A DNA stretch of 64,000 nucleotides from Maribacter aquimaris (GTDB lineage: Bacteria > Bacteroidota > Bacteroidia > Flavobacteriales > Flavobacteriaceae): positions 124,001 to 188,000 of the forward strand of contig NZ_JABTCF010000008.1 in the NCBI RefSeq assembly GCF_014596745.1, read 5' to 3'. Position numbers and translations under genes: made by a program. The notes under the pieces are model-generated. The model made no database searches. It was not told the DNA's origin and saw only the letters and a program-made list of their open reading frames with translations. Position 1 is the stretch's first letter. Every line of letters begins with the position of its first letter. Shown in pieces: positions 6,773 to 21,972 of the stretch.

Positions 6773-6789
6773 CGTTGGCTTACATAAAA

Positions 6790-6825: not shown

Positions 6826-6853
6826 ATGTTTTTACGATCTTCGGTTAAGGGTA

Positions 6854-8761
6854 CTATAGAACGTTATCCATAATTTCCTTAACGACTTCAGGATTCAATA
6901 AGGTACTGGTATCTCCCAGGTTGGAAGTGTCATTACTGGCGATTTTACGCAAAATCCTTCTCATAATCTTACCGCTTCGTGTTTTTGGTAGTCCGGACAC
7001 AAATTGAATTTTATCCAATTTGGCTATAGGGCCAATAAGTTCGGTAATCTGTTGATTGATTTCCTTACGAACGTTATCCCTATCACGACTTTCACCGGTT
7101 TCCTTCAGGATAACATAGCCATATAGGGCATTTCCTTTAACGTCATGTGGGAATCCTACGATTGCGGATTCTGCCACAGCCTGGTGTTCGTTAATGGCAT
7201 CTTCAATAGGGGCAGTTCCCAAGTTATGTCCAGATACGATAATCACATCATCGACGCGGCCTGTAATCCTATAATACCCTACGGCATCCCTATTGGCACC
7301 ATCACCTGTAAAGTACATGTTTTTGTATGCCGAAAAGTAGGTGTCCCGATAACGCTCATGATTGCCCCATATGGTCCTCGCAATCGATGGCCATGGGAAT
7401 TTAATACACAGTCGTCCCTCTACCTGGTTGCCTTTGATTTCTTTGCCTTCCTCATCCATTAATGCTGGTTGTACGCCTATAAAGGGTAAGGTGGCAAAAG
7501 TTGGTGTGGTTGGCGTAACATAGGGGATAGGGGAAATCATGATACCTCCCGTCTCAGTTTGCCACCAAGTATCAACAATCGGACTCTTTTTCTTACCTAC
7601 ATTATTGTTATACCAGTGCCAAGCTTCCTCATTAATGGGTTCACCCACTGAACCGAGGACTTTTAAGGATGATAGGTCATGTTTTTCTAGATAATCCAAA
7701 TTTTCCTTTGCCAAAGCCCGGATAGCGGTAGGTGCCGTATAAAACTGATTCACCTTGTGTTTTTCGATCACTTCCCAAAAACGACTAAAATCAGGGTAGG
7801 AGGGAACGCCTTCGAACATTATCGATGTAGCGCCATTGGCCAAGGGTCCGTATACGATATAAGAGTGTCCCGTAATCCAACCAATATCGGCCGTACACCA
7901 GAAAACATCTTCTTCGCGATATTGAAATATATTTTTAAACGTGTAGGCGGTATAAACCATATAACCCCCACAGGTATGAACCATTCCCTTTGGTTTTCCT
8001 GTGGATCCTGAAGTATAAAGAATGAACAACGGATCCTCGGCATTCATGGTCTCTGCCTCGCAAACGCTATCGGCGTCATCCATCAAAGGGGCCAGCCATT
8101 TATCCCTACCTTCAACCATCTCAATGTCACTTTGGATCCTTTTGGCCACTAATACGGATTGTACACCAGGGCATTCTTCCAAGGCTTTATCCACGATTCC
8201 CTTAAGATCGATTGATTTGTTTCCACGATAAGAACCGTCTGATGTTATCACCATTTTACAATCGGAATCATTGATCCTGGAAGCAATTGCATTTGAGGAG
8301 AAACCTGCAAAGACAACGGAATGGATTGCCCCAATACGCGCACAGGCAAGAAGGGCATAGGTGAGTTCAGGGATCATGGGCAAGTAAATACAAACACGAT
8401 CGCCTTTTTTTATACCATTGTCTTTAAGTACATTGGCCAATTTGCAAACCCTTTCATGTAACTGTCCGTAGGTGATATGCTGTGCCTCTTCCTCAGGGTC
8501 ATTGGGTTCAAAAAGGATGGCGGTTTTGTTCCTGCGGGTAGCCAAATGCCTGTCGATACAGTTATCGGTAATGTTCAATTGGGCACCCTGAAACCATTTG
8601 ACCTCCGGTTTGGAAAAATCCCATTCCAATACGGTGTCCCATTTCTTTCGCCAGATGAAATGTTCCTCTGCGATTTCTTCCCAAAAACTCTCGGGGTTAC
8701 GAACGGATTTTCTATAAACTTGATAATATTCCTCTAGGTGTTTAATGTGATAATTACTCAT
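6854..8761 (-). CDS. acs: Acetyl-CoA synthetase (AMP-forming)
   Basis: 635 residues of ANL-superfamily acyl-adenylating enzyme. It shows the phosphate-binding loop YTSGSTGKPKG (249-259), the acetate-pocket/adenine segment DTWWQTETGG, the hinge region TGDGANRDAVGYYRITGRVDD, and the C-terminal catalytic lysine in PKTRSGKIMRR (K598), the residue acetylated in homologues to switch the enzyme off. It converts acetate, ATP and CoA to acetyl-CoA in the cytoplasm. It is the last gene of a same-strand run with the propionyl-CoA synthetase 12 bases upstream, and shares the locus with an ActP-type acetate symporter and a symporter-linked sensor kinase. Tryptophan in the WWQTE motif favours acetate over longer acids. 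Start ATG 8759-8761. Confidence 0.94.
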   Translation of the reverse strand: MSNYHIKHLEEYYQVYRKSVRNPESFWEEIAEEHFIWRKKWDTVLEWDFSKPEVKWFQGAQLNITDNCIDRHLATRRNKTAILFEPNDPEEEAQHITYGQLHERVCKLANVLKDNGIKKGDRVCIYLPMIPELTYALLACARIGAIHSVVFAGFSSNAIASRINDSDCKMVITSDGSYRGNKSIDLKGIVDKALEECPGVQSVLVAKRIQSDIEMVEGRDKWLAPLMDDADSVCEAETMNAEDPLFILYTSGSTGKPKGMVHTCGGYMVYTAYTFKNIFQYREEDVFWCTADIGWITGHSYIVYGPLANGATSIMFEGVPSYPDFSRFWEVIEKHKVNQFYTAPTAIRALAKENLDYLEKHDLSSLKVLGSVGEPINEEAWHWYNNNVGKKKSPIVDTWWQTETGGIMISPIPYVTPTTPTFATLPFIGVQPALMDEEGKEIKGNQVEGRLCIKFPWPSIARTIWGNHERYRDTYFSAYKNMYFTGDGANRDAVGYYRITGRVDDVIIVSGHNLGTAPIEDAINEHQAVAESAIVGFPHDVKGNALYGYVILKETGESRDRDNVRKEINQQITELIGPIAKLDKIQFVSGLPKTRSGKIMRRILRKIASNDTSNLGDTSTLLNPEVVKEIMDNVL

Positions 8762-8773
8762 TGGTCTTTGTTT

Positions 8774-10666
8774 TTAGTTTGATCCTATTTTATGCGTTTT
8801 GTAAACGTTCTCTATTTCATCGATTATTTTTGGGTCATCAATTGTTGATGGTATTTTATAGTCGTCATTATCCGCTATACTGCGTAACAATTTACGTAGA
8901 ATTTTTCCAGAACGTGTTTTGGGCAATCGATCTACCAAAATCACTTGTTTTAATGAGGCAACCGGTCCAATTTGATTTCTAACTTCCTTGATGACCTCAC
9001 TTTGGATGACCGATTCCGCGATTTCATTTCCGGATTTGGTCACGGCCAAGGCTAAGGGGATCTGGCCCTTAAGGTCATCATTGATCCCGATTACGGCACA
9101 TTCGGCCACAGCCGGATGGGAAGCGACGATTTCTTCCATTTCAGCGGTGGATAACCGATGTCCTGCCACATTGATGACATCATCCACCCTTCCGGTGATA
9201 TAGACATAACCATCCGAATCCCTATAACCGCCATCACCTGAAAAATAATAACCGGGAAAACGTGCTAAATAACCTGCTTTGAATCTTTCCGGATTTTTCC
9301 AAATATTCTTCAGGTTCCCTGGAGGTAAAGGTAATTTTACGGTTACAAAGCCTTCTGAGCCCGCCCCTAATATTTCACCGTCATTACCCAGTATTTGAAT
9401 ATTATACCCACAGACAGGAAAGGTGGCAGAGCCTGGTTTTACCTTGGCCAATTCCACTCCGGCCATATTGGCCAACATCGGCCATCCGGATTCTGTTTGC
9501 CACCAATGGTCAATGACGGGTACCTTTAATTTTTCCTCGGTCCATTTTAAGGTGGATGCATCACAGCGTTCCCCAGCTAAAAATTGGAACTTAAGGCTTG
9601 AAAGGTCATAGCCTTTCATCATTTCCCCATTGGGATCTTCCTTCTTGATGGCCCTGATTGCCGTGGGTGCCGTAAACATTACTTTTACCCTATGTTCACT
9701 GATAACCCTCCAAAATGTCGAGGCATCGGGAGTCCTGATGGGTTTGCCTTCAAAAAGAATGGTGGTGTTCCTATTGATCAATGGTCCATAAACGATATAA
9801 CTATGTCCTACAACCCAGCCTACGTCACTGGCCGCCCAAAACACATCCCCGGGCTCTACCCCATACACGTATTTCATTGAGAATTTGAGTGCAGTCGCAT
9901 ACCCTCCAGTGTCCCTAATGATTCCTTTGGGTTTACCCGTGGTACCCGAGGTATATAGGATATATGAGGGATGGGTGGCTTCAACCGCCAAGGGTTCTGC
10001 TGGTGAGGCATTCTTGACAGCTTCCAGATAGTCGATATCATAGGGTTTCCCAGGGGTGTCGGCCCCTAAATGTCTTTGGAAAAGAATGACCTTATTAGGT
10101 TTGTGCGCGGCCATTTCAATGGCTTTGTCAACATAAGGTTTGTAGGGTATGATCCGGTCGATTTCTATACCACTGGAGGCGGTAATGATGACCTTTGGTG
10201 TGCAATCATCTATTCTAATGGCCAATTCATGGGGGGCAAATCCGCCAAATACAACGGAATGTATAACACCGATTCTTGCGCAAGCCAACATGGAATAGAG
10301 GGCTTGGGGTATCATGGGCATATAGATGATGGCCGTATCACCCTTTTCGAGTCCTAAATCCTTTAAGGCCCCAGCGAGTCTTGAAACTTCTTTGTGAAGA
10401 CGATTATAGGTAATTATCTCTTTGGTATTTGTGACCGGTGAATCATATATTAGGGCATTCTGACGTCCAAATCCATCTTCGATATGTTTGTCTATGCAGA
10501 GATAACTCAAATTCAACCTACCATCGGCGAACCATTGCGGATACCCATCGTCATCTTTTGAAAGTATGTGTTCGGGAGCCTGATGCCAGTGAAGGTTCTC
10601 AGCTTGTTCTTTCCAAAATCCTTCTGGATTCCCAATGCTCTGTTTGTAGAATTCCTGGTAATTCAT
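8774..10666 (-). CDS. prpE: Propionyl-CoA synthetase (PrpE/ACSS3-like)
   Basis: 630 residues from the chosen ATG at 10664-10666, which overlaps the stop of the upstream small gene as ATGA, a coupling arrangement; an ATG 36 bases further up would add residues unlike the family. ANL enzyme with YTSGTTGKPKG (238-248), HWWQTESGWP, SGDGGYRDSDGYVYITGRVDDVIN, then AGHRLSTAEMEE and PKTRSGKILRKLLR with the catalytic lysine. The GHRLSTAEMEE / LKGQIPLAL segment resembles PrpE and ACSS3 rather than Acs. It would activate propionate to propionyl-CoA, feeding the carboxylase encoded 5 kb away. Acetate or butyrate activity is also possible. Confidence 0.85.
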   Translation of the reverse strand: MNYQEFYKQSIGNPEGFWKEQAENLHWHQAPEHILSKDDDGYPQWFADGRLNLSYLCIDKHIEDGFGRQNALIYDSPVTNTKEIITYNRLHKEVSRLAGALKDLGLEKGDTAIIYMPMIPQALYSMLACARIGVIHSVVFGGFAPHELAIRIDDCTPKVIITASSGIEIDRIIPYKPYVDKAIEMAAHKPNKVILFQRHLGADTPGKPYDIDYLEAVKNASPAEPLAVEATHPSYILYTSGTTGKPKGIIRDTGGYATALKFSMKYVYGVEPGDVFWAASDVGWVVGHSYIVYGPLINRNTTILFEGKPIRTPDASTFWRVISEHRVKVMFTAPTAIRAIKKEDPNGEMMKGYDLSSLKFQFLAGERCDASTLKWTEEKLKVPVIDHWWQTESGWPMLANMAGVELAKVKPGSATFPVCGYNIQILGNDGEILGAGSEGFVTVKLPLPPGNLKNIWKNPERFKAGYLARFPGYYFSGDGGYRDSDGYVYITGRVDDVINVAGHRLSTAEMEEIVASHPAVAECAVIGINDDLKGQIPLALAVTKSGNEIAESVIQSEVIKEVRNQIGPVASLKQVILVDRLPKTRSGKILRKLLRSIADNDDYKIPSTIDDPKIIDEIENVYKTHKIGSN

Positions 10667-10887
10667 GACTTGTTTTTTTTGGGGTTGAACAGTCCAAACC
10701 AATTCGGGTTAAGTACCTTTAATTTGATCAACACCCACAGTATTACCACAAAACAAATGCCCATGACAATGGAGTTCATTGGACTGATTGTTGTTTCACT
10801 TTCATATTTAAAACGCAGGTAAAGGGATACGATGGCATATACACAGATAAAGATATCCGATGCCAAAGGGTTGAGACGTAATTTCAT
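10663..10887 (-). CDS. Small membrane protein, unknown function
   Basis: 74 residues with two hydrophobic segments (about 12-24 and 40-60) separated by a short charged loop (RFKYESE), ending in a basic tail (NPKKNKS). I recognise no family. The short soluble ends suggest an inner-membrane hairpin. Its stop overlaps the prpE start by four bases (ATGA), so translation is coupled, and it is 51 bases after the response regulator, all on one strand. Context suggests a role with short-chain acid uptake or activation, but nothing in the sequence shows it. Confidence 0.7.
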   Translation of the reverse strand: MKLRLNPLASDIFICVYAIVSLYLRFKYESETTISPMNSIVMGICFVVILWVLIKLKVLNPNWFGLFNPKKNKS

Positions 10888-10938
10888 ATTAACTTACATT
10901 AATTAGACATAGGTGTTGTTTGCACACAAAACCAATGG

Positions 10939-11307
10939 TTAATTAAGTAGTCCAAGTATCTCTGAAACTATTTTTTTAATTGAAAACGGCTTGGTTAAAT
11001 ATTTATCAGCTCCAAGTTTTAGTCCTTTTTCAATATCTGAAATTTTATTTTTTGCTGTCAGGAACACCACTTTGGTGTTCTTGAGGGCCTCGTTTTTCTT
11101 GATATGCTCCAACGTTTGGTAACCATCCACGTTCGGCATCATTATGTCCAACAGAACCACATCGGGAATGCTTGTTTCCAGAATATGCATGGCCTCACCA
11201 CCATCCCTGGCTATATACACTTCAAAGTCTTTTTTCTTGAAAGCGTATTCCAATGTCATTACAATATTTGGCTCGTCATCGACGATTAATATTTTTTTCG
11301 TTTTCAA
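10939..11307 (-). CDS. Receiver-only response regulator
   Basis: 122 residues when started at TTG 11305-11307, giving MKTKKILIVDDEPN; an upstream ATG would add about 20 residues lying over the end of the kinase gene and is less likely. A single REC domain: acidic pocket D10-D11, phospho-acceptor D54 in VVLLDIMMPNVDG, T84 in FLTAK and K106 in YLTKPF are all present, so it should be phosphorylated. There is no DNA-binding or other output domain, and the protein ends just after the fold. It follows the symporter-kinase gene by 13 bases and is almost surely its phosphorylation partner. Output must go through another protein. CrbR-type acetate regulators of other bacteria carry a LuxR domain, which is missing here. 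Confidence 0.88.
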   Translation of the reverse strand: MKTKKILIVDDEPNIVMTLEYAFKKKDFEVYIARDGGEAMHILETSIPDVVLLDIMMPNVDGYQTLEHIKKNEALKNTKVVFLTAKNKISDIEKGLKLGADKYLTKPFSIKKIVSEILGLLN

Positions 11308-11320
11308 TAGCGTGTACAAT

Positions 11321-14011
11321 TTAATTAAAAGGCAGCTTAAATCCAAACGTTGAGCCAACTTTGACACCTTTTTCCAACCAAATCCTACCGTTGTGTTTTT
11401 CGATTATTTGTTTGCTTATCGCCAGCCCTAGTCCACTGCCTTGGGGCTTAATCGTATTTTGGTTTTTTGATTGGTAGAATTTATCAAAAATATAATTAAT
11501 ATCCTCATCGGGAATGCCTTTTCCGTTATCCTTCACGTAAACCTCGATACAATTGTTCCCTAATTTATAATCCAGGGTTATAACACCCTTTTCGGACTCA
11601 CAGAATTTTAGGGAATTTGAAAGTAAGTTCGTCAATACCTGGAGTATCCTGTCCTCATCATAGGGTAATTCAAAATTAAAGCTATTGAGGTTCACTATTT
11701 TGATTTCTTTTTTGGCAGCGATATGTTGAATGTTACCAATGGCTTTCTTTAAGGTCTTTTGGATATTGTGTTTTTTTAAGTTCAACTGTTGTCTGCCGGT
11801 AGAAAGCTTTTCAAAATCAAGGATATTGTTGATCAGTCGCGATAGGCGGTCAGAATCACTGACGATATTCTTAAGGAAGGTCTGTCGAATTTCCGGGGGC
11901 ATGTCGTCGTTTTCATCCATCAAAAGTTCGGAGGCGGCCCGGATACCCGTAATGGGTGTTTTTAATTCATGGGCGACGGTATCCAGGAATTCATCCTTTT
12001 GTTTATCCTTTACGATCAATTCCTCATTGGCCTCTTTTAGTTTACCCGTTAAATCGGTGAGTTCGATCGATTTTTCCTGTAATGCCTTGTTACTGCTTAT
12101 GGTTTCCTTTGATTCTTCCAAAATCTTCAATACTTCGGTCAAGCTGATCTCTTGTTCCTTGACAACGCCTGCAATTAGGATCTTCGCCGAGGCACCGCCG
12201 ATACTTCCTGTCAGCAGTTTTTCTGAAAAATTGATCAATCGGGCATCTGCCATTTGGGTGTCACTTGGTATGTGGTATTTTTTGAAGAAAAGTTGCAGTG
12301 CACGCTGAGTCCTTGCTTCCCCTAAAAATTTGGTCAGGACATTTTTGATATCCGCGACATAAGCTTCCCCTTTCCATACGAGGGCGTTATCCTGTAGCGA
12401 GGAATAGTTTTTGCTGTCGACGAACATCTCGGCATAATTCCGCTCCCTATAGTGCCCCTTAAAAGCTACGGAGATGGTCAAATAACATACTATGTTGGCA
12501 GATAAACTCCAAAAAAATGCATGGGCGGGTGGACTTAGAAAGTCAATACCAAATAACGCATAGGGCTTTAACGCTGCAATCCCGAAAAGCCCTAAGTCGG
12601 TAAATTCACTGCCCCCGGTAAATGCCTCTATGGTAAACGGGAGGATCAAGGTGTAGGTTGAAATCGCAAACCCCAATAAAATACCTAGGATGGAGCCTAA
12701 GGAGGAACCACGGTTCCAATAAAGACCAATAAAGAATGATGGGGCCAATTGGGCGACGATCACAAAGGAAATCAACCCAATGGAATACAGGGAGAGTTCT
12801 ATGGAGAAATTAGTGTAAAAGAAATAAGCGAGAATAATGATGGTAAATATCGATATGCGTCGAATATTCTTGATATAAAGGGCATTCTCCTCGGGTTTCG
12901 CTTTTATGAACTTGTCTAGGAAACCATATGGAATGATCAAATTGTTACTGATCATTTTCGACAGGGCCAATGTAGAAACGACTACCATTGATATTACAGC
13001 CGAAAACCCTCCAAGGAAGACCAAAAGGGCTAAAAAGGTATGACCACTGTTCAATGGGAGTAATAGGGTATAGTATTCCGCATTAGCGTTTTCCCCAAAT
13101 GTCAATTTGCCGGCCCAAGCAATGAATATAACGAAGACGTTAAAAAGCAATAGGTAAAGGGGGAACATCCAGATGGCTTTCTTAAGATGTTTTTCCCTGC
13201 TATTTTCCAGAACTGAAATTTGGAACTGTCTGGGCAATAGAAAAATAGCAGTGAACGAGAGCATTAACATAAAGAACCAATTGAACCCACTTTCCAGGGT
13301 GGGTAATTTAATCAAGGAATCGAAGTTGGGCTCTGATGATATTTTATTATAAATATCCTCCGTGCCGTCAAAGAGGTAGTAGGTCACATAAATACCAATG
13401 ATCAAAAAGAAAGTCAATTTCAATAGGGATTCAAAAGCTACCGTGGTAACAATGCCCTTGTGTTTTTCAGAGGCATCGGTAGCCTGGGTGCCAAAGAATG
13501 TCGCGAAAATAGCCAAAATCAGTGCGATGTAAAAGGTAGAATCGTCAAACATACCCAAACCTATGGGATGGGGTTCATTCGTCATTATGGAAAAGGTGTC
13601 GGCAACTGCTTTAAGTTGTAATGAAATATAGGGTACGGTGGCCGTAATGCACAAAACCGTGATCAAGGCCCCTAAAAAACGATTGTTACCATATCGAAGC
13701 GAAATGAAATCAGCAATCGACGATATCTTATGTTGTTTTGATATCCGTATGATCTTACGTAGCAGAATGATCCATATTGGAACGGCTATGGCCGGACCAA
13801 GGTAAATGGGAAGGAATTCCACCCCGGAATTGGCAGCCGTACCAATACTGCCATAATACGTCCAGGCGGAGCAATATACGGCCAAGGATAAGGTGTAGAT
13901 ATAGGGGTTGTTTACCCATTTGCTCTTGGCGTTCTTTTCGGCGATGAACGCAATGTAAAAAAGCACTGCCAAATAACAGAAAATGATTATGACCAATAAA
14001 TAATTACTCAT
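11321..14011 (-). CDS. Sodium:solute symporter-sensor histidine kinase fusion
   Basis: 896 residues. The first 520 or so form an SSS-family transporter domain of about 13 membrane segments (for example AVYCSAWTYYGSIGTAANSG near residue 50). A linker with the short STAC-like region around 540-620 and a coiled coil (about 625-670) leads to HisKA with the phospho-accepting histidine H681 in AHELKTPITG, then HATPase_c with the N box NLLSNSLKF, G1 VKDNGKGIPDED and G2 GSGLGLAISK. This is the CbrA/CrbS architecture; CrbS controls acs in vibrios. It probably senses or takes up acetate or a related acid and phosphorylates the adjacent receiver. It overlaps the small upstream gene by 8 bases. Ligand is inferred from the acs and actP neighbours. 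Confidence 0.9.
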   Translation of the reverse strand: MSNYLLVIIIFCYLAVLFYIAFIAEKNAKSKWVNNPYIYTLSLAVYCSAWTYYGSIGTAANSGVEFLPIYLGPAIAVPIWIILLRKIIRISKQHKISSIADFISLRYGNNRFLGALITVLCITATVPYISLQLKAVADTFSIMTNEPHPIGLGMFDDSTFYIALILAIFATFFGTQATDASEKHKGIVTTVAFESLLKLTFFLIIGIYVTYYLFDGTEDIYNKISSEPNFDSLIKLPTLESGFNWFFMLMLSFTAIFLLPRQFQISVLENSREKHLKKAIWMFPLYLLLFNVFVIFIAWAGKLTFGENANAEYYTLLLPLNSGHTFLALLVFLGGFSAVISMVVVSTLALSKMISNNLIIPYGFLDKFIKAKPEENALYIKNIRRISIFTIIILAYFFYTNFSIELSLYSIGLISFVIVAQLAPSFFIGLYWNRGSSLGSILGILLGFAISTYTLILPFTIEAFTGGSEFTDLGLFGIAALKPYALFGIDFLSPPAHAFFWSLSANIVCYLTISVAFKGHYRERNYAEMFVDSKNYSSLQDNALVWKGEAYVADIKNVLTKFLGEARTQRALQLFFKKYHIPSDTQMADARLINFSEKLLTGSIGGASAKILIAGVVKEQEISLTEVLKILEESKETISSNKALQEKSIELTDLTGKLKEANEELIVKDKQKDEFLDTVAHELKTPITGIRAASELLMDENDDMPPEIRQTFLKNIVSDSDRLSRLINNILDFEKLSTGRQQLNLKKHNIQKTLKKAIGNIQHIAAKKEIKIVNLNSFNFELPYDEDRILQVLTNLLSNSLKFCESEKGVITLDYKLGNNCIEVYVKDNGKGIPDEDINYIFDKFYQSKNQNTIKPQGSGLGLAISKQIIEKHNGRIWLEKGVKVGSTFGFKLPFN

Positions 14012-14198
14012 AGAACCTATTAAGTATGATATATGAAATTACTATGGATACGAGCCAGACGGAAAATATGTAGAAATAAAAATAGGGGATGCCGAATAGG
14101 GCACCATCAATATTAAAAACCCATAAAAGAGGAATATTGAAGAGCAGTAGCATGCCTATCGATAGGATTATCAATTTCTGTTCGTGCCGTTTTTTCAT
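14004..14198 (-). CDS. DUF3311-like small membrane protein
   Basis: 64 residues with two hydrophobic helices (about 9-29 and 39-58). The stretch FNIPLLWVFNIDGALFGIP followed by YFYFYIFSVW resembles DUF3311 proteins, which are encoded next to sodium:solute symporters. The stop overlaps the start of the symporter-kinase by 8 bases, so it is likely a small partner of that protein's transporter domain. Its own transcription follows a hairpin at 14227-14263, so either a separate promoter or read-through from the actP unit drives it. Family assignment is by eye on a short protein. Confidence 0.65.
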   Translation of the reverse strand: MKKRHEQKLIILSIGMLLLFNIPLLWVFNIDGALFGIPYFYFYIFSVWLVSIVISYIILNRFYE

Positions 14199-14226
14199 GG
14201 TTTTGGGCTATAATTATAAATATATG

Positions 14227-14263
14227 AAAAAAGCAGTACTCCAAGAGGGAGCACTGCTTTTTT
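14227..14263. terminator. Hairpin terminator after actP
   Basis: AAAAAAGCAGT pairs with ACTGCTTTTTT, extended by CTCC/GGAG after an A-C mismatch around a five-base loop. It has a T-run on both strands. It lies 20 bases downstream of the symporter gene on the minus strand and 29 bases upstream of the DUF3311-like gene, so it probably separates or attenuates between transport and sensing genes. Confidence 0.75.
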
Positions 14264-14282
14264 CAACAATCAACTAACTATC

Positions 14283-16058
14283 TTAATGGGAACTGGCTTC
14301 TCCTGCATTGCTTGGTATTCTAATGCTTTCAACCATTTCCTGTACATTTTCTGGTGGAGGGGCGGTCATTCTTGAAACCACTACCGATACGATGACATTA
14401 ACGATCATAGCAACCGTACCGAAACCTTCAGGTGACGTACCGAACCACCATTCACTGGCGGGTCGGGCATCCATGACACCGACAAGTCCTGTTTTATACC
14501 GAATCATATAGAATAGCATTAAGGTGATACCCACGATCATACCGGCAATGGCCCCCTTACTATTCATTCTTTTATCAAAAATACCTAAGATAATGGCAGG
14601 GAAGAATGATGCGGCAGCAAGACCGAAGGCCAATGCGACAACCGCGGCCACAAAGCCTGGCGGATATATTCCAAAAACACCGGCGATAATGATCGCAACC
14701 AAAATAGCGATTCGTGCCGCCATTAACTCTCCCTTTTCCGAAATATCGGGTTTGATTTGCTTTTTGATCAAGTCATGGGAGATCGATGTGGAAATCACCA
14801 ATAATAATCCTGCTGCCGTTGATAAAGCTGCAGCCAGTCCACCCGCTGCAACCAATGCGATTACCCAGTTTGGTAAATTAGCGATTTCAGGGTTGGCCAA
14901 TACCATGATGTCCCTATCGACATAAAGTTCATTGGACGATGTATTTGCATTGGAGATCAATCGTTCCCCATTGGCACCACGAGCATCGGTGAATAGCGGT
15001 TTTTTTCCTTCTAAGGCGTTACCGGCGACATATTGGATTTTTCCATCATTATTCTTATCTGCCCAAGCAATTAAACCAGTGTCTTCCCAGTTCTTGAACC
15101 ATTGTGGTATTTCGGTATACGACTTGTTGTCGACCGTCTCGATGAGGTTTGTCCGCGCAAAAACGGCGATAGCGGGTGCCGTGGTGTATAAAATGGCAAT
15201 GAACAGTAAGGCGAGTCCTGCCGATTTACGGGCATCCTTCACTTTAGGTACGGTAAAGAATCTGACAATTACATGCGGCAATCCTGCAGTTCCCGCCATT
15301 AAGGCAAGTGTAATTGCAAAAACGTCCCAAGTTGATTTTGTTCCGCTGGTATATTCATTGAAACCTAGTTGGGTATGCAATGCATCCAATTTATCCAAAA
15401 GAAATGTCCCACCTTCAACTTTTCCACCCATTCCCATTTGTGGGATAGGGTTTCCGGTCATTTGCATGGAGATAAAAAATGCGGGGACCATAAAGGCAAA
15501 AATCAATACACAATATTGGGCCACCTGGGTATAGGTAATCCCTTTCATTCCGCCTAAAAAGGCAAATACAAGAACAACCGCCATTCCGATGATGACACCT
15601 AAATTGATATCGACCTGTAAGAATTGTGAAAATACGATTCCAACCCCCCTCATTTGTCCCGCCACATAGGTAAAAGAAACGATCAAGGCACATATAACGG
15701 CAACTGTCCTCGCCGTGTTGGAGTAATACCTATCCCCGATAAAGTCTGGTACTGTAAATTTCCCGAATTTTCGAAGATAAGGGGCCAGCAGTAGTGCAAG
15801 AAGCACATACCCACCGGTCCAGCCCATGAGATAGACAGAGCCATCGTAGCCTGCAAAAGAAATGATTCCGGCCATAGAGATGAATGATGCGGCGCTCATC
15901 CAATCGGCGGCTGTTGCCATACCGTTGGCCAATGGGGAAACTCCGCCACCGGCTACATAAAATTCCTTAGTGGAACCAGCCCTTGCCCAGATGGCAATTC
16001 CAAAATAAATGGAGAACGTAATCCCAACTAAAATCCAAGTCCATAATTGAACACTCAT
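14283..16058 (-). CDS. ActP-type sodium/acetate symporter
   Basis: 591 residues, SSS family, about 13 membrane segments. YVAGQMRGVGIVFSQFL (about 127-143) and the sodium-site region GTAGLPHVIVRFFTVPKVKDARKS (about 256-279, shown in part) are typical of cation/acetate symporters of the ActP group. A soluble insert at about 315-385 contains an EF-hand-like DKNNDGKIQY segment, a feature of the subgroup paired with DUF4212. It imports acetate or another short-chain acid with sodium. The DUF4212 gene lies 30 bases upstream; a terminator follows. Acs and PrpE are encoded further down on the same strand, which supports acid uptake as the job. Exact substrate is inferred. Confidence 0.88.
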   Translation of the reverse strand: MSVQLWTWILVGITFSIYFGIAIWARAGSTKEFYVAGGGVSPLANGMATAADWMSAASFISMAGIISFAGYDGSVYLMGWTGGYVLLALLLAPYLRKFGKFTVPDFIGDRYYSNTARTVAVICALIVSFTYVAGQMRGVGIVFSQFLQVDINLGVIIGMAVVLVFAFLGGMKGITYTQVAQYCVLIFAFMVPAFFISMQMTGNPIPQMGMGGKVEGGTFLLDKLDALHTQLGFNEYTSGTKSTWDVFAITLALMAGTAGLPHVIVRFFTVPKVKDARKSAGLALLFIAILYTTAPAIAVFARTNLIETVDNKSYTEIPQWFKNWEDTGLIAWADKNNDGKIQYVAGNALEGKKPLFTDARGANGERLISNANTSSNELYVDRDIMVLANPEIANLPNWVIALVAAGGLAAALSTAAGLLLVISTSISHDLIKKQIKPDISEKGELMAARIAILVAIIIAGVFGIYPPGFVAAVVALAFGLAAASFFPAIILGIFDKRMNSKGAIAGMIVGITLMLFYMIRYKTGLVGVMDARPASEWWFGTSPEGFGTVAMIVNVIVSVVVSRMTAPPPENVQEMVESIRIPSNAGEASSH

Positions 16059-16088
16059 AATTTTTAATTTTTTTGGTTAGTTATTAGA

Positions 16089-16349
16089 TTACTCGTCGTA
16101 ACCGTATTTTTTATCTAGTTTGTTCATTAATCGTACATAAACGAAGATCAAGATCACGAATACATAAATAGAACCTTGTTGGGCAAACCAAAAACCTAGT
16201 TTGAATCCTCCTAACCGAAACTCATTTAAAGTTTCCCTGAATAGTATTCCTGCACCATACGATACCAGAAACCAAATAGATAGAAGAATAATCAGGTACT
16301 TTAGATTTTCCCTCCAATACGCGGTGGCCTTTTTTTGTTTTTCACTCAT
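16089..16349 (-). CDS. DUF4212 sodium/substrate symporter small subunit
   Basis: 86 residues, two membrane helices (about 16-36 and 57-76). The opening KATAYWRENLKYLIILLSIW and the segment LGGFKLGFWFAQQGSIYVFV match the DUF4212 family, described as small subunits of SSS symporters. Its position directly before the ActP-type gene, 30 bases apart on the same strand, fits a two-component transporter. It follows the porin start by 13 bases on the 5' side (porin is downstream in position but separate in reading order), so porin, small subunit and symporter are probably not independent units. Confidence 0.88.
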   Translation of the reverse strand: MSEKQKKATAYWRENLKYLIILLSIWFLVSYGAGILFRETLNEFRLGGFKLGFWFAQQGSIYVFVILIFVYVRLMNKLDKKYGYDE

Positions 16350-16362
16350 AATTGTTTGGTTT

Positions 16363-17583
16363 TTATAAATAAATCATTGCTTGTAGGGTTACTGTTCCCA
16401 AATCGGAATCCCCGAATTTTTGGTTTTTGTATTCCATTGTTAATTTGGAGTTATGTCCGTTGAGATAGGCATTTATGCCTAAACCGAAGATATTCCTATT
16501 GTCATCGACTACATCATAACTGTTGGAAGCAAAGGAAACATAGGGTTGAAACCTTGTCTTTGTTTTGTCTCCCGCAAAAACATAGCCCAAATGGGAGTAG
16601 ATCATACTTCCCGTACCATAGGCACTATACAGGTAATCGGTACCGTAATCGTTGCTTTGATACGTGGCATATGCGGTTAGGGCACTTCCATCATCACCTA
16701 AAGGGGTGTCATAAAAAGCGTCAATACCGAAGATACTTACATTTTCTTTCTCCAGATTTCCAGTGGCATCAGCGATTACCGATCCCCCAGGATGTAAAAA
16801 GAACCCTGCACCAATATTGAATACCTTCTTGGTTCCCAGATAAGAACCTACTTTAAAAGGTAGGAAATTAGACTCCTGATCCAAGAAATTAAAATCGAAA
16901 TAACCTGCATAGGCTTTACCGGAATCTTTGGAGCCAAGTAGTCGTTTGCCTGCGTATACCGCTGCACCATTGGGTTCGGGTGTACGTGTATCCAAGCCAT
17001 TGGTGATTGCGTCATTGATGGCAACCCTGTATTGCAACTTACCGAACTTACCTTTGGCAAATATACCTATGTGCCTCGCAAATTGGTCGGTTAGTCCTAA
17101 AGTAGACCATGACTGCCGATTGTTGTCCAGTGTCATGAAATTAAGGGTACTTTGATTGTTCAGTCTTGAGATGCCGTTAAAGTAGTGTAGGCCACCACCA
17201 ACAACATGGTCCTCACCCACATTGTATTGTGCCCATACGTCATGAAAGAACAATTGGGACCCATCTCCCTTTCCTGTGGGGGATAGTGTTCCACTATTGA
17301 GACTATTCAGTCCGAAATGGGTAAGGATCAAGAACTTTTTGTTGATTTGGGCAAACATCAAAACACGGGCTCTTCTTAAGTTGAAACTCGTGCTACTGGT
17401 GTTGTCGGGTACATCACTGTTGTACGTTCCTTGGACTTGGGCCCAGGAAATAATACGAAGGTATTTATTGCCTTCTTCATCAAATTTTACTTTAAGGCCG
17501 CCATTATAATCAGGTGACCCTTGCGAATGCAACATCTGAAAGGAACCAAATAAACCTAACAGAAGTAAAGCAATTTTCTTCAT
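16363..17583 (-). CDS. Outer-membrane porin (phosphate-selective porin O/P-like)
   Basis: 406 residues with a clear signal peptide (MKKIALLLLGLFGSFQMLHS). The mature chain alternates polar and hydrophobic residues with many Gly, Asn and aromatic residues, ends in an aromatic-rich strand (VTLQAMIYL), and contains LRRARVLMFAQINKKFLILTH-like strands seen in porin O/P relatives: an outer-membrane beta barrel. It precedes the DUF4212-actP pair by 13 bases on the minus strand and so is the first of a three-gene transport unit that would carry small acids across both membranes. Substrate is inferred only from this context; the anion-selective porin family fits it. Confidence 0.8.
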   Translation of the reverse strand: MKKIALLLLGLFGSFQMLHSQGSPDYNGGLKVKFDEEGNKYLRIISWAQVQGTYNSDVPDNTSSTSFNLRRARVLMFAQINKKFLILTHFGLNSLNSGTLSPTGKGDGSQLFFHDVWAQYNVGEDHVVGGGLHYFNGISRLNNQSTLNFMTLDNNRQSWSTLGLTDQFARHIGIFAKGKFGKLQYRVAINDAITNGLDTRTPEPNGAAVYAGKRLLGSKDSGKAYAGYFDFNFLDQESNFLPFKVGSYLGTKKVFNIGAGFFLHPGGSVIADATGNLEKENVSIFGIDAFYDTPLGDDGSALTAYATYQSNDYGTDYLYSAYGTGSMIYSHLGYVFAGDKTKTRFQPYVSFASNSYDVVDDNRNIFGLGINAYLNGHNSKLTMEYKNQKFGDSDLGTVTLQAMIYL

Positions 17584-17691
17584 GATTTTTAGGGTTTAGT
17601 TAGTAACAAATTGGTTTTGTGTGCTTTGCTAAACTCCTTAAAAGAAAGTCACGATAAAAAAATGATATATATAAATGGTAATTATGTATAG

Positions 17692-18111
17692 TTAATCACG
17701 GAATCGTTCCCATTTAATAAGCATGAACTTATCCCCTAGTTCGGTAACCACCACTCCTGCGCCCGATAGGTTGTCGGTATTTTGGAAATAGTTGGACAAT
17801 TCGCCTGCATTGAGGATTTTATAGGTGGGATGGTAGTTGGGATTGTACGGTCTTTTGATGTTGTATTTTTTTACCCAGTTCATGATACTTACATGTGAAA
17901 TGCCAAGGATGCGTTCAATTTCACGATAAGACAATCCCTCTAGATATAATTGCAACGCTTTATTCACGTAGTATTGGTCAATACTCTTACCTATCTTGTT
18001 GACCGAGAAGAAATAGTTGCACGATTTGCACTTGTAACGTTGTCTTTGGTTGATGATTCCACTCTTGACGAATTGTTCGGATCCACAGTTCGGGCAGCAA
18101 TCAATTTTCAT
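17692..18111 (-). CDS. InsA-like zinc-ribbon and HTH protein, probable regulator
   Basis: 139 residues. The N-terminus is a zinc ribbon (ligands C6, C9, C28, C31) and residues about 46-85 form a helix-turn-helix (LSYREIERILGISHVSIMNWV), the same order as IS1 InsA. A C-terminal tail of about 50 residues (from NPNYHPTYK) is not part of InsA. There is no InsB transposase partner, no terminal inverted repeat and no target duplication around it, so it is not a live insertion sequence. It heads the acetate transport unit and sits divergent to the DUF294 gene. I infer a domesticated DNA-binding regulator of this locus; an inactive transposase remnant is the alternative, though the intact frame speaks against it. 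Confidence 0.75.
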   Translation of the reverse strand: MKIDCCPNCGSEQFVKSGIINQRQRYKCKSCNYFFSVNKIGKSIDQYYVNKALQLYLEGLSYREIERILGISHVSIMNWVKKYNIKRPYNPNYHPTYKILNAGELSNYFQNTDNLSGAGVVVTELGDKFMLIKWERFRD

Positions 18112-18118
18112 ATATATA

Positions 18119-18146
18119 AAATTAGCATAAATATATCAAATTAGCA
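18119..18146. repeat. Tandem 9-base repeats before the InsA-like gene
   Basis: AAATTAGCA occurs at 18119-18127 and again at 18138-18146, a 19-base period, followed in each case by an A/T stretch containing AAATA. The pair begins 8 bases upstream of the start of the InsA-like gene, where a promoter and autoregulatory site would be expected. It could be an operator, but such AT-rich repeats also arise by chance. Confidence 0.4.
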
Positions 18147-18292
18147 ATAAATAAGGATTATGGGTCCAAATGGTTTGATAATTTCATGTAATATTGAATG
18201 ATATATGGGTTGTTTTATAGCTGAACATCATTGTTTGTTCCTAAGTTCCTTCCTGTATTTTAGGTCTTGGGTTACGAGTCGATTTCATTGAT

Positions 18293-18300
18293 TATCTTTA
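18293..18300 (+). promoter_or_regulatory. Candidate -7 box before the DUF294 gene
   Basis: TATCTTTA differs from TAnnTTTG only in the last base and ends four bases before the ATG at 18305. If used, the transcript would be nearly leaderless. Confidence 0.3.
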
Positions 18301-18304
18301 ACTT

Positions 18305-20215
18305 ATGAAAAATACGATAGCAGAACGTATTTATGATTTCCTAAAGGATTTTCCGCCTTTCAATGCGTTGGATGAAGGACAATTAATGACCATTTGTGAA
18401 CAGGTCAAAATTGGTTATTACGACGTGGGGGACTATGTTTTTCAGAAAGAAGATGATTTACACGATGTTTTTTATGTAGTAAAAGATGGTGCTGTCGGTA
18501 TTTTTAGGGAAGGCGATGTTCTTGTTGATGAATGTGATGAGGGGGATATTTTTGGTCTTCGGGCACTTATACGACAAAGTGCTTACCTATTAAGTGCCAA
18601 GGCTATTGAGGAAAGTATCGTATATGCGATATCCTCGGATTTGTTGGAAGCCTATATAACGAGTAATATTGATGCTAATAAATTCATAATGGCCAGTTTT
18701 GCATCGAATACCCTGAACCCTTACTTGGATAGGGACATAGGACGGCCATATTCCTTGGAAGGTGAATTCAATCAGCAAACAGGGCACTTGGCCTACTTAC
18801 AGAATGTAGGGGTTAAAAAAAATCCGGTTACCTGTTCCGAGGACACCAATATAATGACCGCGGCAATCACAATGACCGAAAAAAAAGTCGGATCGATCAT
18901 CATCACGAACAATGACAAACCTAGGGGGATAATCACCGACAAGGATTTACGGACAAAAATAGCAACGGGAAAATACAGTATATCCAATTCGGTCACGCAG
19001 ATCATGAGTTCGCCTGTTATTACCGTACCTGAAAATATTTCGATCGCCGAGGCACAAATTACCATGCTTCGAAATAAAATCACCCACCTTTGCGTAACCA
19101 AGGACGGTACAAACGATTCTGTCTTGGTCGGAGTCCTTTCCGAACATGATATTGTTGTTGCACAAAGCAATAATCCCTCATACTTGATCAAGGAGGTTAA
19201 AAGAGCGGAAACCGCCATTAAACTGCATGAGGTTCGTCAAAAATCCCAAGGATTGATGCAGCGTTACCTGGATCAACATATTCCTGTTAGTTTGGTTTCG
19301 AAGATCATTTCGGCCATTAATGAGGCTATTTGCCAAAAGGTAATCGAATTGAGTATTGATGAAATGGGCCAACGGCCCCCCACTGCTTTTTCATGGCTTT
19401 CTTTGGGTAGCCAGGGTAGGGGTGAGCAACTGTTATTGACCGATCAGGATAATGCACTGGTTTTTGGGGATGTACCTCCTGAACATCAAGAAAAAACAAA
19501 GACATACTTTCTCGCATTCGCGCAGTTGGTAACGGAAAAATTGAATGTGGTGGGATTTGAATTCTGTCCGGCCGAAATGATGGCAAGCAATTCCAAATGG
19601 TGTTTGTCACTGACCGAGTGGAAAAACCAGTTCAATGATTGGATTACCAAACCCGATGAGGACAAGATAATGCTCTCAACCATTTTCTTTGACTACGATA
19701 GGGTGTATGGCGATGCCAATTTGGTTGATCGGATGTCCGATAGTATATTCCAATCTATTGATAATTACGGGATTTTCTTGAACTTCCTAGCTTTGAATGC
19801 GATAAAAAACCCACCACCACTAAGTTTTTTCAGACAGTTCCTGGTGGAATCGAGTGGAGAGCATAAGGATCTTTTCGATATTAAGTCCAGAGCCATGATG
19901 CCCTTGGTGGATGCTGCTAGACTCTTGGTACTTTCAAATAGTATCAAGGAGCATAACAATACCATTAAAAGGTTCGAGGTGCTTGCAGGGTTAGAACCTC
20001 AGAACAAGGATTTGTACAATGCTTGCATAGATGCCTTTAAGGTCCTACTGCGCTTTAGAACGGTGGAGGGACTAAAACACAACGATTCGGGTAGGTTTTT
20101 CGACCTAAAGTCACTCAGCAAGGCTAACCGTTTAAAATTGAAAGGTTGTTTTGGTGCTATAAAGGATATTCAGGAATTGATTAAAGTGCGTTTTAAACTA
20201 GCCCAAATAATGTAA
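18305..20215 (+). CDS. cNMP-binding/CBS/DUF294 nucleotidyltransferase-like protein
   Basis: 636 residues in four parts: a cyclic-nucleotide-binding fold (about 15-125), a CBS pair (about 170-290), a DUF294 nucleotidyltransferase fold, and DUF294_C (about 500-630). The catalytic signature GSQGRGEQLLLTDQD (368-382) has GS plus DxD as in GlnD-type uridylyltransferases, so it may be active. The family is often encoded beside acetate symporter genes and a DnaQ-like exonuclease, as here, but no molecular function is established that I can name. The CBS pair suggests sensing of adenine nucleotides. Its stop abuts the next start with no gap. The probable role is a regulatory enzyme of acid metabolism or symporter activity (inference). 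Confidence 0.85.
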   Translation: MKNTIAERIYDFLKDFPPFNALDEGQLMTICEQVKIGYYDVGDYVFQKEDDLHDVFYVVKDGAVGIFREGDVLVDECDEGDIFGLRALIRQSAYLLSAKAIEESIVYAISSDLLEAYITSNIDANKFIMASFASNTLNPYLDRDIGRPYSLEGEFNQQTGHLAYLQNVGVKKNPVTCSEDTNIMTAAITMTEKKVGSIIITNNDKPRGIITDKDLRTKIATGKYSISNSVTQIMSSPVITVPENISIAEAQITMLRNKITHLCVTKDGTNDSVLVGVLSEHDIVVAQSNNPSYLIKEVKRAETAIKLHEVRQKSQGLMQRYLDQHIPVSLVSKIISAINEAICQKVIELSIDEMGQRPPTAFSWLSLGSQGRGEQLLLTDQDNALVFGDVPPEHQEKTKTYFLAFAQLVTEKLNVVGFEFCPAEMMASNSKWCLSLTEWKNQFNDWITKPDEDKIMLSTIFFDYDRVYGDANLVDRMSDSIFQSIDNYGIFLNFLALNAIKNPPPLSFFRQFLVESSGEHKDLFDIKSRAMMPLVDAARLLVLSNSIKEHNNTIKRFEVLAGLEPQNKDLYNACIDAFKVLLRFRTVEGLKHNDSGRFFDLKSLSKANRLKLKGCFGAIKDIQELIKVRFKLAQIM

Positions 20216-20884
20216 ATGTTCAAGGAGATTTTTAAACGGCATAAACCGGAATTTTGGAAGGATTATACGGGTCATTTCAAAAATAAACAGCCACAGGAAC
20301 TGAATGCTGTCCGTTTTGTCGTATTCGATACCGAGACAACAGGTTTGGATATTGTGGAGGATCGCATATTATCCATCGGGGCCATATCGATTGTAGATTT
20401 AAGGATAGACGTTGGCGATTCCCTGGAAACGTATGTTAAACAAGATGTTTTCAATGTTGGGACCGTAGGTATCCACGGCATCCTAAAAGAGGGGAATATT
20501 CATAAATTGTCTGAGGCAGCGGCCATAAAGGGTTTTTTGGGTTATGTGGAAAATGCGGTTTTGGTTGCCCATCATGCCGCTTTTGATATTGCGATGGTCA
20601 ATGCGGGATTGGCCCGAATGGGGTTGCCCAAACTTAAAAACAAGGTGTTGGACACCGGTGTTCTTTTTAAGAAAACATCGCTCTGTGAAAAGAAACAAGA
20701 CCATTATTCCTTGGACCGTTTATGCGCGGTTTTCAACTTGAAGAAACATGACAGGCATACGGCCTCAGGAGATGCCTTGATAACAGCCTTGATTTTCTTA
20801 AAGGTTGTTTCCCACCTATCAAAAAAAAGGAAACCGAATTTGGGTGATCTTCTTTTTAATTCGGACCGTAGGGGGTTATGGTAA
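20216..20884 (+). CDS. DnaQ-like 3'-5' exonuclease (DEDDh)
   Basis: 222 residues. All five DEDDh residues are seen: D38 and E40 in FDTETTGLD, D124 in HHAAFDIAM, H181 and D186 in HDRHTASGDALIT. About 30 residues precede the fold. The ATG follows the stop codon of the DUF294 gene without a gap, so the two are translated together. Stand-alone epsilon-like exonucleases degrade single-stranded DNA or RNA ends; the partnership with a nucleotidyltransferase-like protein hints at removal of an added nucleotide or small nucleic acid, which is only an inference. It converges on anmK with 11 bases between stops. Confidence 0.87.
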   Translation: MFKEIFKRHKPEFWKDYTGHFKNKQPQELNAVRFVVFDTETTGLDIVEDRILSIGAISIVDLRIDVGDSLETYVKQDVFNVGTVGIHGILKEGNIHKLSEAAAIKGFLGYVENAVLVAHHAAFDIAMVNAGLARMGLPKLKNKVLDTGVLFKKTSLCEKKQDHYSLDRLCAVFNLKKHDRHTASGDALITALIFLKVVSHLSKKRKPNLGDLLFNSDRRGLW

Positions 20885-20895
20885 TCAATACGGCG

Positions 20896-21972
20896 TCAAT
20901 TGGGTAGATAAACCACACCACTTGAAGAATCCCTTTTGGCTCCGGTCACCGAACATAGGACATTGATTTCCCTTTCAATTCTCAAAACACCCATGAGGGC
21001 AAAAACCAGGGCTTCCTTGTTTTCAATCAATTCTTGGGAGGGTACGATAACATCAACAGCTTCCCCTAATTTGGTTTTGAGCGTAGCGATGAGAAAATCA
21101 TTCAAGGCGCCACCCCCGGTAACCAATAAATTCGATTTTTGTTTTGTGGTATTACTTTTTACCTGAAGGGCAATTTGTTCGCATAGGTGGTGGATCGAGG
21201 TGTGCAAAAGATTTTCAATGCTTTCATCGGTGGCATCGACTATGGGTACAACCTTGTCCTCAAACCATTCAAAGCCTGTTGACTTTGGGAAAGGTAATTT
21301 GTAATAATCCAAGGCATTTAAAGCGTCGAGCATTTTTTGATTAACCGATCCGCTTTCGGCCAATTGACCTCCTTTGTCGTAATTCAAATCGATTTTTTGG
21401 GTAATATAATTCAAGATCATGTTTGCCAATCCAATATCGTAAGCTATACGTTGGCCGTCTTTTTCGAAGGAGATATTACTTATGCCCCCTAGATTCAAAC
21501 AAAAATCATATTCCCCGAACAACAAACGATCCCCGATGGGAACGAGAGGGGCCCCCTGACCGCCCAAGGCAACATCATTGGTGCGGAAATCACAAACAAC
21601 CTTATGCTTACAGGCATTGGCCAAATGTTGTCCTGATCCAATTTGGTAGGTGAGGCCATTTTCTGGTTGGTGGTGTGTTGTGTGTCCATGACTTGCTATA
21701 AAATCCACTTCTAAGGCATTGGTTTTAATGAACGACTTTACCTGTTCACCGAGCCATTGGCCGTAGGTGTTGTTGAACGTTAAAAGCTCATCGGCGGAAA
21801 GGTATATTGAATTCTTCAATTTATCCTTCATGCTTTTTGAATAGGATATGCTTTGGGTTTTTGTAATTCGATATGCCCAGCGATCCAAAGTTCTTGTAAA
21901 ATGGCAATAGGTGAGGTCTAAACCATCCAAAGAGGTGCCAGACATGAGTCCGATGACTTTAAATGTTTTCAT
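20896..21972 (-). CDS. anmK: Anhydro-N-acetylmuramic acid kinase
   Basis: 358 residues from ATG 21970-21972, which puts KTFKVIGLMSGTSLDGLD at the N-terminus as in the family; an ATG 24 bases further up is less likely. Other family marks are GGQGAPLVPIGD and LNLGGISNISF (ATPase fold, ASKHA). It converts 1,6-anhydroMurNAc and ATP to MurNAc-6-P in the cytoplasm, the step before MurQ, which is encoded 10 kb away in this window along with the GH3 hexosaminidase and an AmpG-like permease. A TATCTTTC box (22008-22015, minus strand) is 35 bases before the start and may be its promoter. Confidence 0.93.
   Translation of the reverse strand: MKTFKVIGLMSGTSLDGLDLTYCHFTRTLDRWAYRITKTQSISYSKSMKDKLKNSIYLSADELLTFNNTYGQWLGEQVKSFIKTNALEVDFIASHGHTTHHQPENGLTYQIGSGQHLANACKHKVVCDFRTNDVALGGQGAPLVPIGDRLLFGEYDFCLNLGGISNISFEKDGQRIAYDIGLANMILNYITQKIDLNYDKGGQLAESGSVNQKMLDALNALDYYKLPFPKSTGFEWFEDKVVPIVDATDESIENLLHTSIHHLCEQIALQVKSNTTKQKSNLLVTGGGALNDFLIATLKTKLGEAVDVIVPSQELIENKEALVFALMGVLRIEREINVLCSVTGAKRDSSSGVVYLPN

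Follow-up and report, generated by a model that had tools for sequence, protein, structure and literature searches.

An IS1-derived candidate regulator, a bare receiver and a putative RNA pairing element at a predicted acetate and propionate uptake locus of Maribacter aquimaris

The stretch of DNA analysed here (the window) comprises 64,000 nucleotides of the 4.86 Mb genome of Maribacter aquimaris (assembly GCF_014596745.1, contig NZ_JABTCF010000008.1, positions 124,001 to 188,000). At 6854-20884 it holds genes for the predicted sensing, uptake and activation of acetate and propionate, among them a receiver domain (REC) protein that has no output domain and a gene for a protein resembling InsA of the insertion sequence IS1. 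The twelve genes that an original prediction, made from the letters alone, placed in this region are real; checks of open reading frames (ORFs) against Pfam and NCBIfam give ten main genes and two small ORFs (Table 1). Comparison with relatives brings out a fixed gene array, the co-occurrence of its members, a DNA element beside the insA-like gene and the covariation of two RNA segments, and it makes the InsA-like protein the strongest candidate to supply the DNA-binding output that REC lacks. Neither the tandem DNA element nor the putative RNA pairing element figured in the original prediction.

Hairpins after ActP and after Acs suggest three transcription units, comprising InsA alone, the porin with DUF4212 and ActP (the uptake unit), and a run from the first small ORF through the kinase, REC, the second small ORF and PrpE to Acs (the sensor/enzyme unit). 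The hairpin after ActP would separate the uptake unit from the sensor/enzyme unit. The terminator scan as a whole returned 17 candidates against 15.5 expected, and only the long stem after ActP is persuasive. The two small ORFs flank the kinase and REC, and by eye relatives have similar ones.

Table 1. Genes and other features at the locus, with positions in the window.
Feature	Positions	Strand	Basis
Terminator-like hairpin after Acs	6790-6825	-	16-bp stem
Acs, acetyl-CoA synthetase	6854-8761	-	Pfam; NCBIfam 970 bits (cut-off 725)
PrpE-like acyl-CoA synthetase	8774-10702	-	NCBIfam propionate--CoA ligase 755 bits, below cut-off 955; Pfam
Small ORF between REC and PrpE, 74 aa, membrane protein by eye	10663-10887	-	No Pfam family over cut-off
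Putative complementary RNA segment, sense TTGGTTTTGTGTGCA, just 3' of the REC stop codon	10921-10935	-	Word counts, complementarity, covariation
Bare receiver REC	10939 to about 11319	-	Pfam Response_reg
Symporter-domain histidine kinase, non-hybrid	11321-14011	-	Pfam HisKA and HATPase_c; PDB homology
Small ORF before the kinase, 64 aa, membrane protein by eye	14004-14198	-	No Pfam family over cut-off
Intrinsic-terminator-like hairpin after ActP	14225-14265	-	18-bp stem, T-rich tail
ActP-type symporter	14283-16058	-	Pfam
DUF4212 subunit	16089-16349	-	Pfam
Porin	16363-17583	-	NCBIfam porin_ExtI E 5e-19, below cut-off; no Pfam match
Predicted stem-loop in the porin leader	17590-17640	-	Loop core 17611-17625, sense GCACACAAAACCAA
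Inverted, more degenerate copy of the 19-bp element, directly after the InsA stop codon, upstream of the porin	17656-17691	-	
InsA-like protein, 139 aa; zinc ribbon, helix-turn-helix, C-terminal domain of about 45 residues	17692-18111	-	NCBIfam
Tandem 19-bp element, GCTAAATTNNTATA twice, ending beside the InsA start codon; proposed operator	18113-18145	-	
cNMP-binding/CBS/DUF294 protein; neighbour outside the fixed array	18305-20215	+	Pfam, synteny
DEDD exonuclease, 222 aa, without the kinase-like part of proteobacterial counterparts	20216-20884	+	Pfam

REC consists of a receiver domain only. Response_reg (106.7 bits) is the sole Pfam family over its cut-off, and the phosphorylation residues (DD, D, T and K) are intact by eye, which bears out the earlier description of a bare, phosphorylatable receiver as the only response regulator of the locus. 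Its frame starts directly behind the stop codon of the kinase. In the kinase, the His box and the ATP-binding boxes are intact by eye. HisKA and HATPase_c are its only Pfam matches, with no match to the SSF family, and its symporter half is backed by a PDB match (10ed_A, residues 6-460, E 1.8e-72). No Pfam match was found between the symporter and kinase parts, and a resemblance to the STAC linker was judged by eye alone. The kinase is not a hybrid, because the protein ends with HATPase_c.

Among the closest known systems is CrbS/CrbR (MxtR/ErdR). A Halomonas plasmid locus (L219) with the classical arrangement of hybrid kinase and LuxR regulator resembles the window in having a symporter-domain kinase beside acs and actP/DUF4212, with a DUF294-type gene nearby. 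Excerpts of two papers describe CrbS as a hybrid with its own receiver and CrbR as carrying a LuxR output (PMC5715377, PMC7918813), and one of these excerpts states the role of the hybrid's receiver as unknown (PMC7918813). The window differs in that its kinase is non-hybrid, the receiver is separate and bare, and an IS1-derived protein heads the locus. The original prediction was right that no CrbR with a LuxR output is encoded at the locus. When Halomonas CrbR was compared with the whole host genome the best match was only 28% identical, and an unlinked CrbR-type regulator with a LuxR output is therefore unlikely. The receiver of the window is 21.7% identical to Halomonas CrbR and 28% identical, over 75 residues, to the receiver of Halomonas CrbS. 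Identity is 50% and 39% to the bare receivers encoded on plasmids of Cupriavidus and Paracoccus, respectively, and the kinase is homologous over its full length to the kinases of these plasmids (37-40%).

Loci of relatives (labelled L; genomes are labelled G) were fetched by similarity to the InsA-like protein. From 573 relatives the best 80 were taken as the named loci, which biases the set towards close relatives. Their flanks are 10 kb, and DUF294/exonuclease pairs beyond Acs are often outside the fetched stretch. The one-strand order InsA, porin, DUF4212, ActP, kinase, REC, (PrpE), Acs has zero violations in this set, and InsA is the first gene of the array in 80/80. Matches were found to the porin in 79 loci, DUF4212 in 78, ActP in 77, the kinase in 77, REC in 75, PrpE in 50 and Acs in 72. 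REC lies behind the kinase in 75/80; the other five (L034, L048, L053, L079, L098) end before it would start, and all missing kinases and receivers fall in stretches that end early. A porin match is absent in L107, and DUF4212 and ActP are absent in L087 and L088. The order is repeated, with InsA first and REC after the kinase, in 30 further loci of the family, two of which are without a porin match and four of which duplicate loci of the first set.

Co-occurrence was examined in two samples of genomes. Among 120 genomes of the family (own included), InsA occurs in 15 and the kinase in 13, both occur together in 13, and none has the kinase alone. The InsA-only genomes are G064 and G116, the latter with a weak partial match. 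Among 395 genomes of the phylum, the kinase occurs in 41, of which 28 belong to the same class (own included) and 13 lie outside it. InsA accompanies the kinase in 28/28 genomes of the class and gives a strong match in 0/13 outside it, where only G132 and G249 have matches near 1e-8. Matches to InsA at E <= 1e-20 without a kinase occur in G283, G406, G308 and G297, and the frames of the last two carry stops. These broken InsA-like frames (L184 in G308, and G297:C92) perhaps reflect decay after loss of the system. At five loci (L170, L174, L175, L178, L182) a transporter that by eye looks like a member of the major facilitator superfamily (MFS) replaces DUF4212 and ActP while InsA, kinase and receiver are unchanged, for example at L170:6420-7997, L174:3979-5655 and L182:6733-8343. 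The persistence of InsA beside these transporters indicates that InsA, kinase and REC form the invariant core. In many marine flavobacteria, genes for the sensing, import and activation of acetate-like acids are thus accompanied by a domesticated part of a transposase that is probably their switch. Acetate and propionate uptake by these bacteria is ecologically weighty.

The relationship of the InsA-like protein to IS1 is clear. The NCBIfam IS1 transposase profile matches at E 9.4e-23 (81.2 bits, below the cut-off of 100), with residues 6-125 aligned to positions 1-123 of 199; the last third of the profile (124-199) is without a match in the protein. The IS1-type N-terminal zinc-binding domain (39.8 bits, cut-off 28) and the Pfam helix-turn-helix (HTH) family HTH_28 (27.2 bits, cut-off 25) are over their cut-offs. 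An AlphaFold model (mean predicted local distance difference test 87.7, predicted template modelling score 0.64) shows a zinc ribbon, an HTH and a small alpha/beta C-terminal domain. Foldseek returned nothing below E 0.001 for this model, the best hit being a weak one to Lrp/AsnC (E 0.02, template modelling score about 0.25). The best E in a PDB sequence search with the InsA profile was 0.089, and a PHROGs search gave weak matches.

Homology of this kind would also be expected of a decaying insertion-sequence remnant that is there by chance. As far as the comparison reaches this is refuted, and we give it next to no credence, given that the gene sits in the same place in the 80/80 named and 30 further loci, that its product is 76-91% identical to the window's protein among the named loci, and that the zinc and HTH residues are kept in an alignment of 64 chosen proteins (the window, 43 of the 80 named and 20 others). 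A mobile insertion sequence was considered and rejected; the gene is single-copy, with one match in each of the 48 genomes, out of 397 of the family, that carry it, and its neighbours are fixed. The protein looks like a domesticated, truncated IS1 InsA, and it is probably the DNA-binding regulator of the locus.

The region upstream of InsA carries a DNA element of its own. In a de novo word count, GCATAAATATA was found in 75/81 such regions against 0.3 expected. The word forms part of a tandem repeat, GCTAAATTNNTATA with a period of 19 bp, whose end lies at the InsA start codon. Scanning for the tandem located it within 70 bp upstream of InsA in 79/80 named loci; the exception is L034, where the sequence starts 31 bases upstream of the gene. 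The named loci have just six other instances of the tandem, of which five lie inverted behind the InsA stop codon and one is in L033, and three shuffles of the window contained none. It is present in 13/17 more distant InsA loci, some of them G+C-rich (misses L175, L177, L178, L179), and in 0/13 kinase loci without InsA. Inspection by eye shows a degenerate tandem in L177 (G283), where InsA is present and the kinase absent. Behind the InsA stop codon, the best inverted 16-bp unit exceeds the 95th percentile of shuffles in 67/80 regions, and when single units are scored its orientation is the same in 78/80.

We infer that InsA binds the tandem and the inverted elements. According to an excerpt of PMC12428005, InsA of IS1 binds both inverted ends of the element and represses a promoter that overlaps one of them. 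The window's protein is like IS1 InsA in its zinc ribbon and HTH and in that elements of inverted orientation flank its gene, with one of them at the gene's start; it is unlike IS1 InsA in being single-copy, fixed in place, unmatched over the last third of the profile and linked to metabolic genes. If so, the locus is a bacterial case in which the DNA-binding part of a transposase and the ends that it recognised were turned into a regulator and its operators.

A second pair of elements points to RNA. The word TGCACACAA occurs in the gap between InsA and the porin in 43/80 loci and in the gap between REC and PrpE/Acs in 51/75, against 0.0 and 0.1 expected, and on the sense strand each copy is the reverse complement of the other. 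Within single loci, complementarity typically runs over 13-19 bases at its longest, and in L037 and L075 it extends unbroken over 24-25. Allowing one mismatch at most, the 15-mer has three places in the host genome, two at the locus and one inside an unrelated frame of 128 aa; a genome-wide operator was accordingly rejected as an account of the motif.

The two copies follow each other in evolution. Leader and after-REC segments could be paired for 69/81 sets, the rest being without a porin match, without a REC followed by PrpE/Acs in view, or with a gap of at most 60 bases. The mean score of each locus's own pairing beat that of swapped pairings in 20000/20000 permutations. Complementary sites were found in 59/69 locus pairs, the count used for changes after L095 and L096 had been dropped by hand together with pairs that had fewer than 9/13 matches, and in 58 without L068, whose after-REC match is spurious. 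Fifteen exact double compensatory changes fall on seven core positions (3, 4, 8, 9, 11, 12, 13), and three further changes differ on both sides (L031, L039, L056). A C>T or A>G change on one side keeps the pairing, as G.U, only if it lies in the porin leader; such one-sided changes number 20 in the leader against 0 after REC, with L068 set aside by hand (23 vs 1 with it), and one-sided transversions number 3 vs 3 (Fisher p 0.008). Counted as one event per genus and position, there are 15 by eye, and the test took 13 vs 0 (p 0.0002). The leader core is enclosed by a predicted stem of at least 5 bp in 70/72 loci, compared with 200/360 shuffles. The stem arms change together, for example GTTTAG/CTAAAC, GATTAG/CTAATC and TCGTACT/AGTACGA. 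The arms were compared sequence by sequence because an RNAalifold consensus fold of the leader on the sequence alignment gave no structure at all; this procedure takes the best helix of each sequence and leans towards finding one. From these patterns we consider it very probable that the porin leader and the segment after REC pair as RNA. If the terminator after ActP works, the pairing would be between two transcripts, or with an RNA processed from the second.

The same two motifs might be oppositely oriented binding sites of one DNA-binding protein rather than pairing RNAs. They are, after all, reverse-complementary copies that flank a gene block, and a protein of drifting specificity would also make both copies co-vary. 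Both copies nevertheless change together within Winogradskyella (L045 and L075 vs L059, L071 and L072), where InsA remains 80-83% identical to the window's protein; the one-sided transitions occur only where a G.U pair results; the leader copy lies in a predicted hairpin loop; and the flanks of the two copies differ. DNA sites of this kind are an improbable explanation, and pairing between RNAs is preferred.

A replication set of 26 further loci gave 18 with both sites, of which 13 are as the consensus, one has a double change, two have one-sided changes compatible with G.U pairing and two have a degraded after-REC copy. Several results argue against the pairing or limit its reach. The other eight replication loci have neither site, and in the two degraded cases (L235 and L247, 2/18) the leader site is kept without its partner. 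The permutation and Fisher tests ignore shared ancestry. The sites were not seen in 15 more distant InsA loci, and complementarity of any kind in 11 of these was not above the best of 20 shuffles; the other four (L167, L182, L183 and, by half a point, L175) exceed the shuffles with other sequences. Their absence from the distant loci suggests that the RNA element arose later than the array or is lost more readily. L182 (G176), which is Flavobacterium-like, has a different complementary pair of about 23 bases that lies well above 20 shuffles and may be a diverged counterpart of the element. A search of window positions 5000-22500 against Rfam gave two matches far below gathering scores (E 1.1 and 4.3) near 14189-14346 and none at either site.

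The element adds a co-varying pairing candidate to a group of bacteria with few base-pairing RNAs known. It is like GibS of Bacteroidota, as an excerpt of PMC7366714 presents it, in being complementary over a long stretch to a metabolic mRNA's leader, and unlike it in that the partner segment follows a receiver gene and the target is a hairpin loop in the leader of a neighbour. According to the same excerpt, Bacteroides has no obvious homologue of Hfq or ProQ, and long seeds without Hfq fit such reports (PMC7366714). Among the matches listed in literature searches on the wiring, on InsA-type regulators and on base-pairing RNAs of Bacteroidota, no title or abstract opening describes the wiring.

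Bare receivers are not peculiar to this locus, and here the original prediction, to which no description of the wiring was known, is not supported. A bare receiver follows the same kinase on the proteobacterial plasmids of Paracoccus and Cupriavidus and in 12/13 distant loci of the phylum without InsA. The bare receiver itself is old, not new here. These systems are like the window in having a non-hybrid symporter-kinase with the bare receiver directly after it, and unlike it in lacking InsA and in encoding a kinase-like protein that was not found in the window. In Paracoccus denitrificans, the neighbour of the kinase is annotated as a 121-residue 'response regulator' and is followed by an exonuclease-domain protein; Cupriavidus is alike. 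The gene after the receiver, on the plasmids and in 12/13 of the InsA-less distant loci, encodes the kinase-like protein, in some cases with a DEDD exonuclease fused to it; the exception, L195, lacks both a receiver match and this gene. In the five examples examined by eye, Glu occupies the place of the phospho-histidine. Searches for the protein gave no match in the window or the 80 named InsA loci, and only weak matches, inside the kinase itself, in the 17 more distant InsA loci.

The kinase-like protein is likely to be a docking partner of the receiver, and its family is presumably DivL-like. In DivK/DivL, a single-domain regulator with a pseudo-kinase partner, a bare receiver must, as in the window, act through another protein; no pseudo-kinase gene was found in the window. 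These comparisons suggest that the output partners of bare receivers were swapped in evolution, with a kinase-like/exonuclease protein on one side and an IS1-derived regulator on the other. The kinase-like family (L187-L194, L196-L199; L217:11131-13290; L218:10043-12160) resembles the dimerisation domain of the kinase itself and has an IRAA-like motif. Just upstream of the kinase in some InsA-less loci lies a gene for an ArsR-type HTH protein (L197:6233-6565 by Pfam; L191:6769-7104 and L192:6619-6945 by eye), which may be the DNA-binding partner there.

An output of REC that is post-transcriptional or enzymatic, acting through the DUF294/exonuclease pair, could have been inherited from this proteobacterial arrangement. 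The plasmids, where an exonuclease with a fused kinase-like part comes after the receiver, are in keeping with this, as is an excerpt of PMC9927547 in which MxtR/ErdR of Pseudomonas putida has among its targets the CBS protein pp_0354 and the putative exonuclease pp_0353. The exonuclease of the window, at 222 aa, is without the kinase-like part, and the pair lies outside the fixed array, with DUF294 in 4/80 and the exonuclease in 5/80 named loci, counts limited by the 10 kb flanks. Such an output has little likelihood. The original prediction had named the InsA-like and DUF294 proteins side by side as possible partners; co-occurrence, synteny and the DNA elements beside the gene strongly favour the first, and an equal standing of the second is not supported.

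We propose that the response regulator of this acetate and propionate sensing and uptake locus is split over two genes, which answers concretely and testably where a bare receiver sends its signal. The symporter-type kinase would phosphorylate REC, and REC would control the separate DNA-binding InsA, probably via the InsA C-terminal domain. InsA would bind the tandem 19-bp sites at its own promoter and the inverted sites at the promoter of porin-DUF4212-ActP, a scheme modelled on InsA of IS1 with its two bound inverted ends and repressed promoter. The segment after REC, which would be transcribed with the kinase, REC, PrpE and Acs, would pair with the hairpin loop of the porin leader, and expression of the sensor/enzyme unit would thereby tune how much of the uptake unit is made. 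We infer the signal and the sign of both controls. As a whole mechanism, the split regulator with its RNA layer stands at an even balance in our judgement.

Two indirect lines lead to REC acting through InsA. One is the exchange of partners, and the other is erosion of the InsA C-terminal domain in genomes without the kinase. In three InsA proteins from such genomes, identity to the nearest relative is 0.53, 0.33 and 0.10 in the C-terminal domain and 0.79, 0.64 and 0.66 in the DNA-binding half. The resulting gaps of 0.26, 0.31 and 0.56 compare with a maximum of 0.24 in 61 others (p 0.002), which are counted as kinase-bearing and include L098, a stretch that ends before the kinase.

Several observations weigh against the scheme. 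InsA is present and no kinase match was found in G064, G283 and G406, which are at least 99% complete, and InsA can thus be kept without the kinase. The erosion rests on only three cases. Receiver matches in the host genome number 52, and several of these proteins are long enough to contain a DNA-binding part as well; REC may have another DNA-binding partner, encoded away from the locus. Mutual information among InsA, REC and kinase (89 loci and the window, about 57 effective) was uninformative, as its kinase-receiver control did not pick out the contact residues. L175 and L178 have InsA and the kinase yet no tandem over the threshold. The element occurs in the gap between REC and PrpE/Acs in at most 1/74 loci and nowhere else in the array, and control by InsA would therefore extend to its own gene and the uptake unit but not to Acs.

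InsA may instead regulate alone, through a metabolite or by autorepression, with REC serving as a phosphate sink, feeding back on the kinase or acting through an unlinked DNA-binding partner. The three genomes that keep InsA without a kinase would be explained, and both the weak likeness of the model to ligand-sensing Lrp/AsnC regulators and the many other receivers of the genome are compatible with it. It leaves unaccounted for that no genome of the same class in the sample keeps the kinase without InsA (28/28), that the C-terminal domain is eroded in the three kinase-less genomes, and that the genome has no close relative of CrbR. We regard this alternative as less likely than not. That REC acts on InsA is a tentative conclusion, a little short of an even chance; it stands somewhat above any single rival and is not proof. 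The full picture, in which phosphorylated REC docks on the C-terminal remnant of InsA, the inverted ends now serve as operators and the RNA after REC kisses the porin leader, coupling sensing, transcription and translation, is more doubtful still.

Adjoining the locus, at window positions 396-5442, are genes that by eye encode a MeaB-type GTPase, a biotin carrier, a carboxylase and a carboxyltransferase of propionyl-CoA metabolism, which fits with a role of the locus in propionate use.

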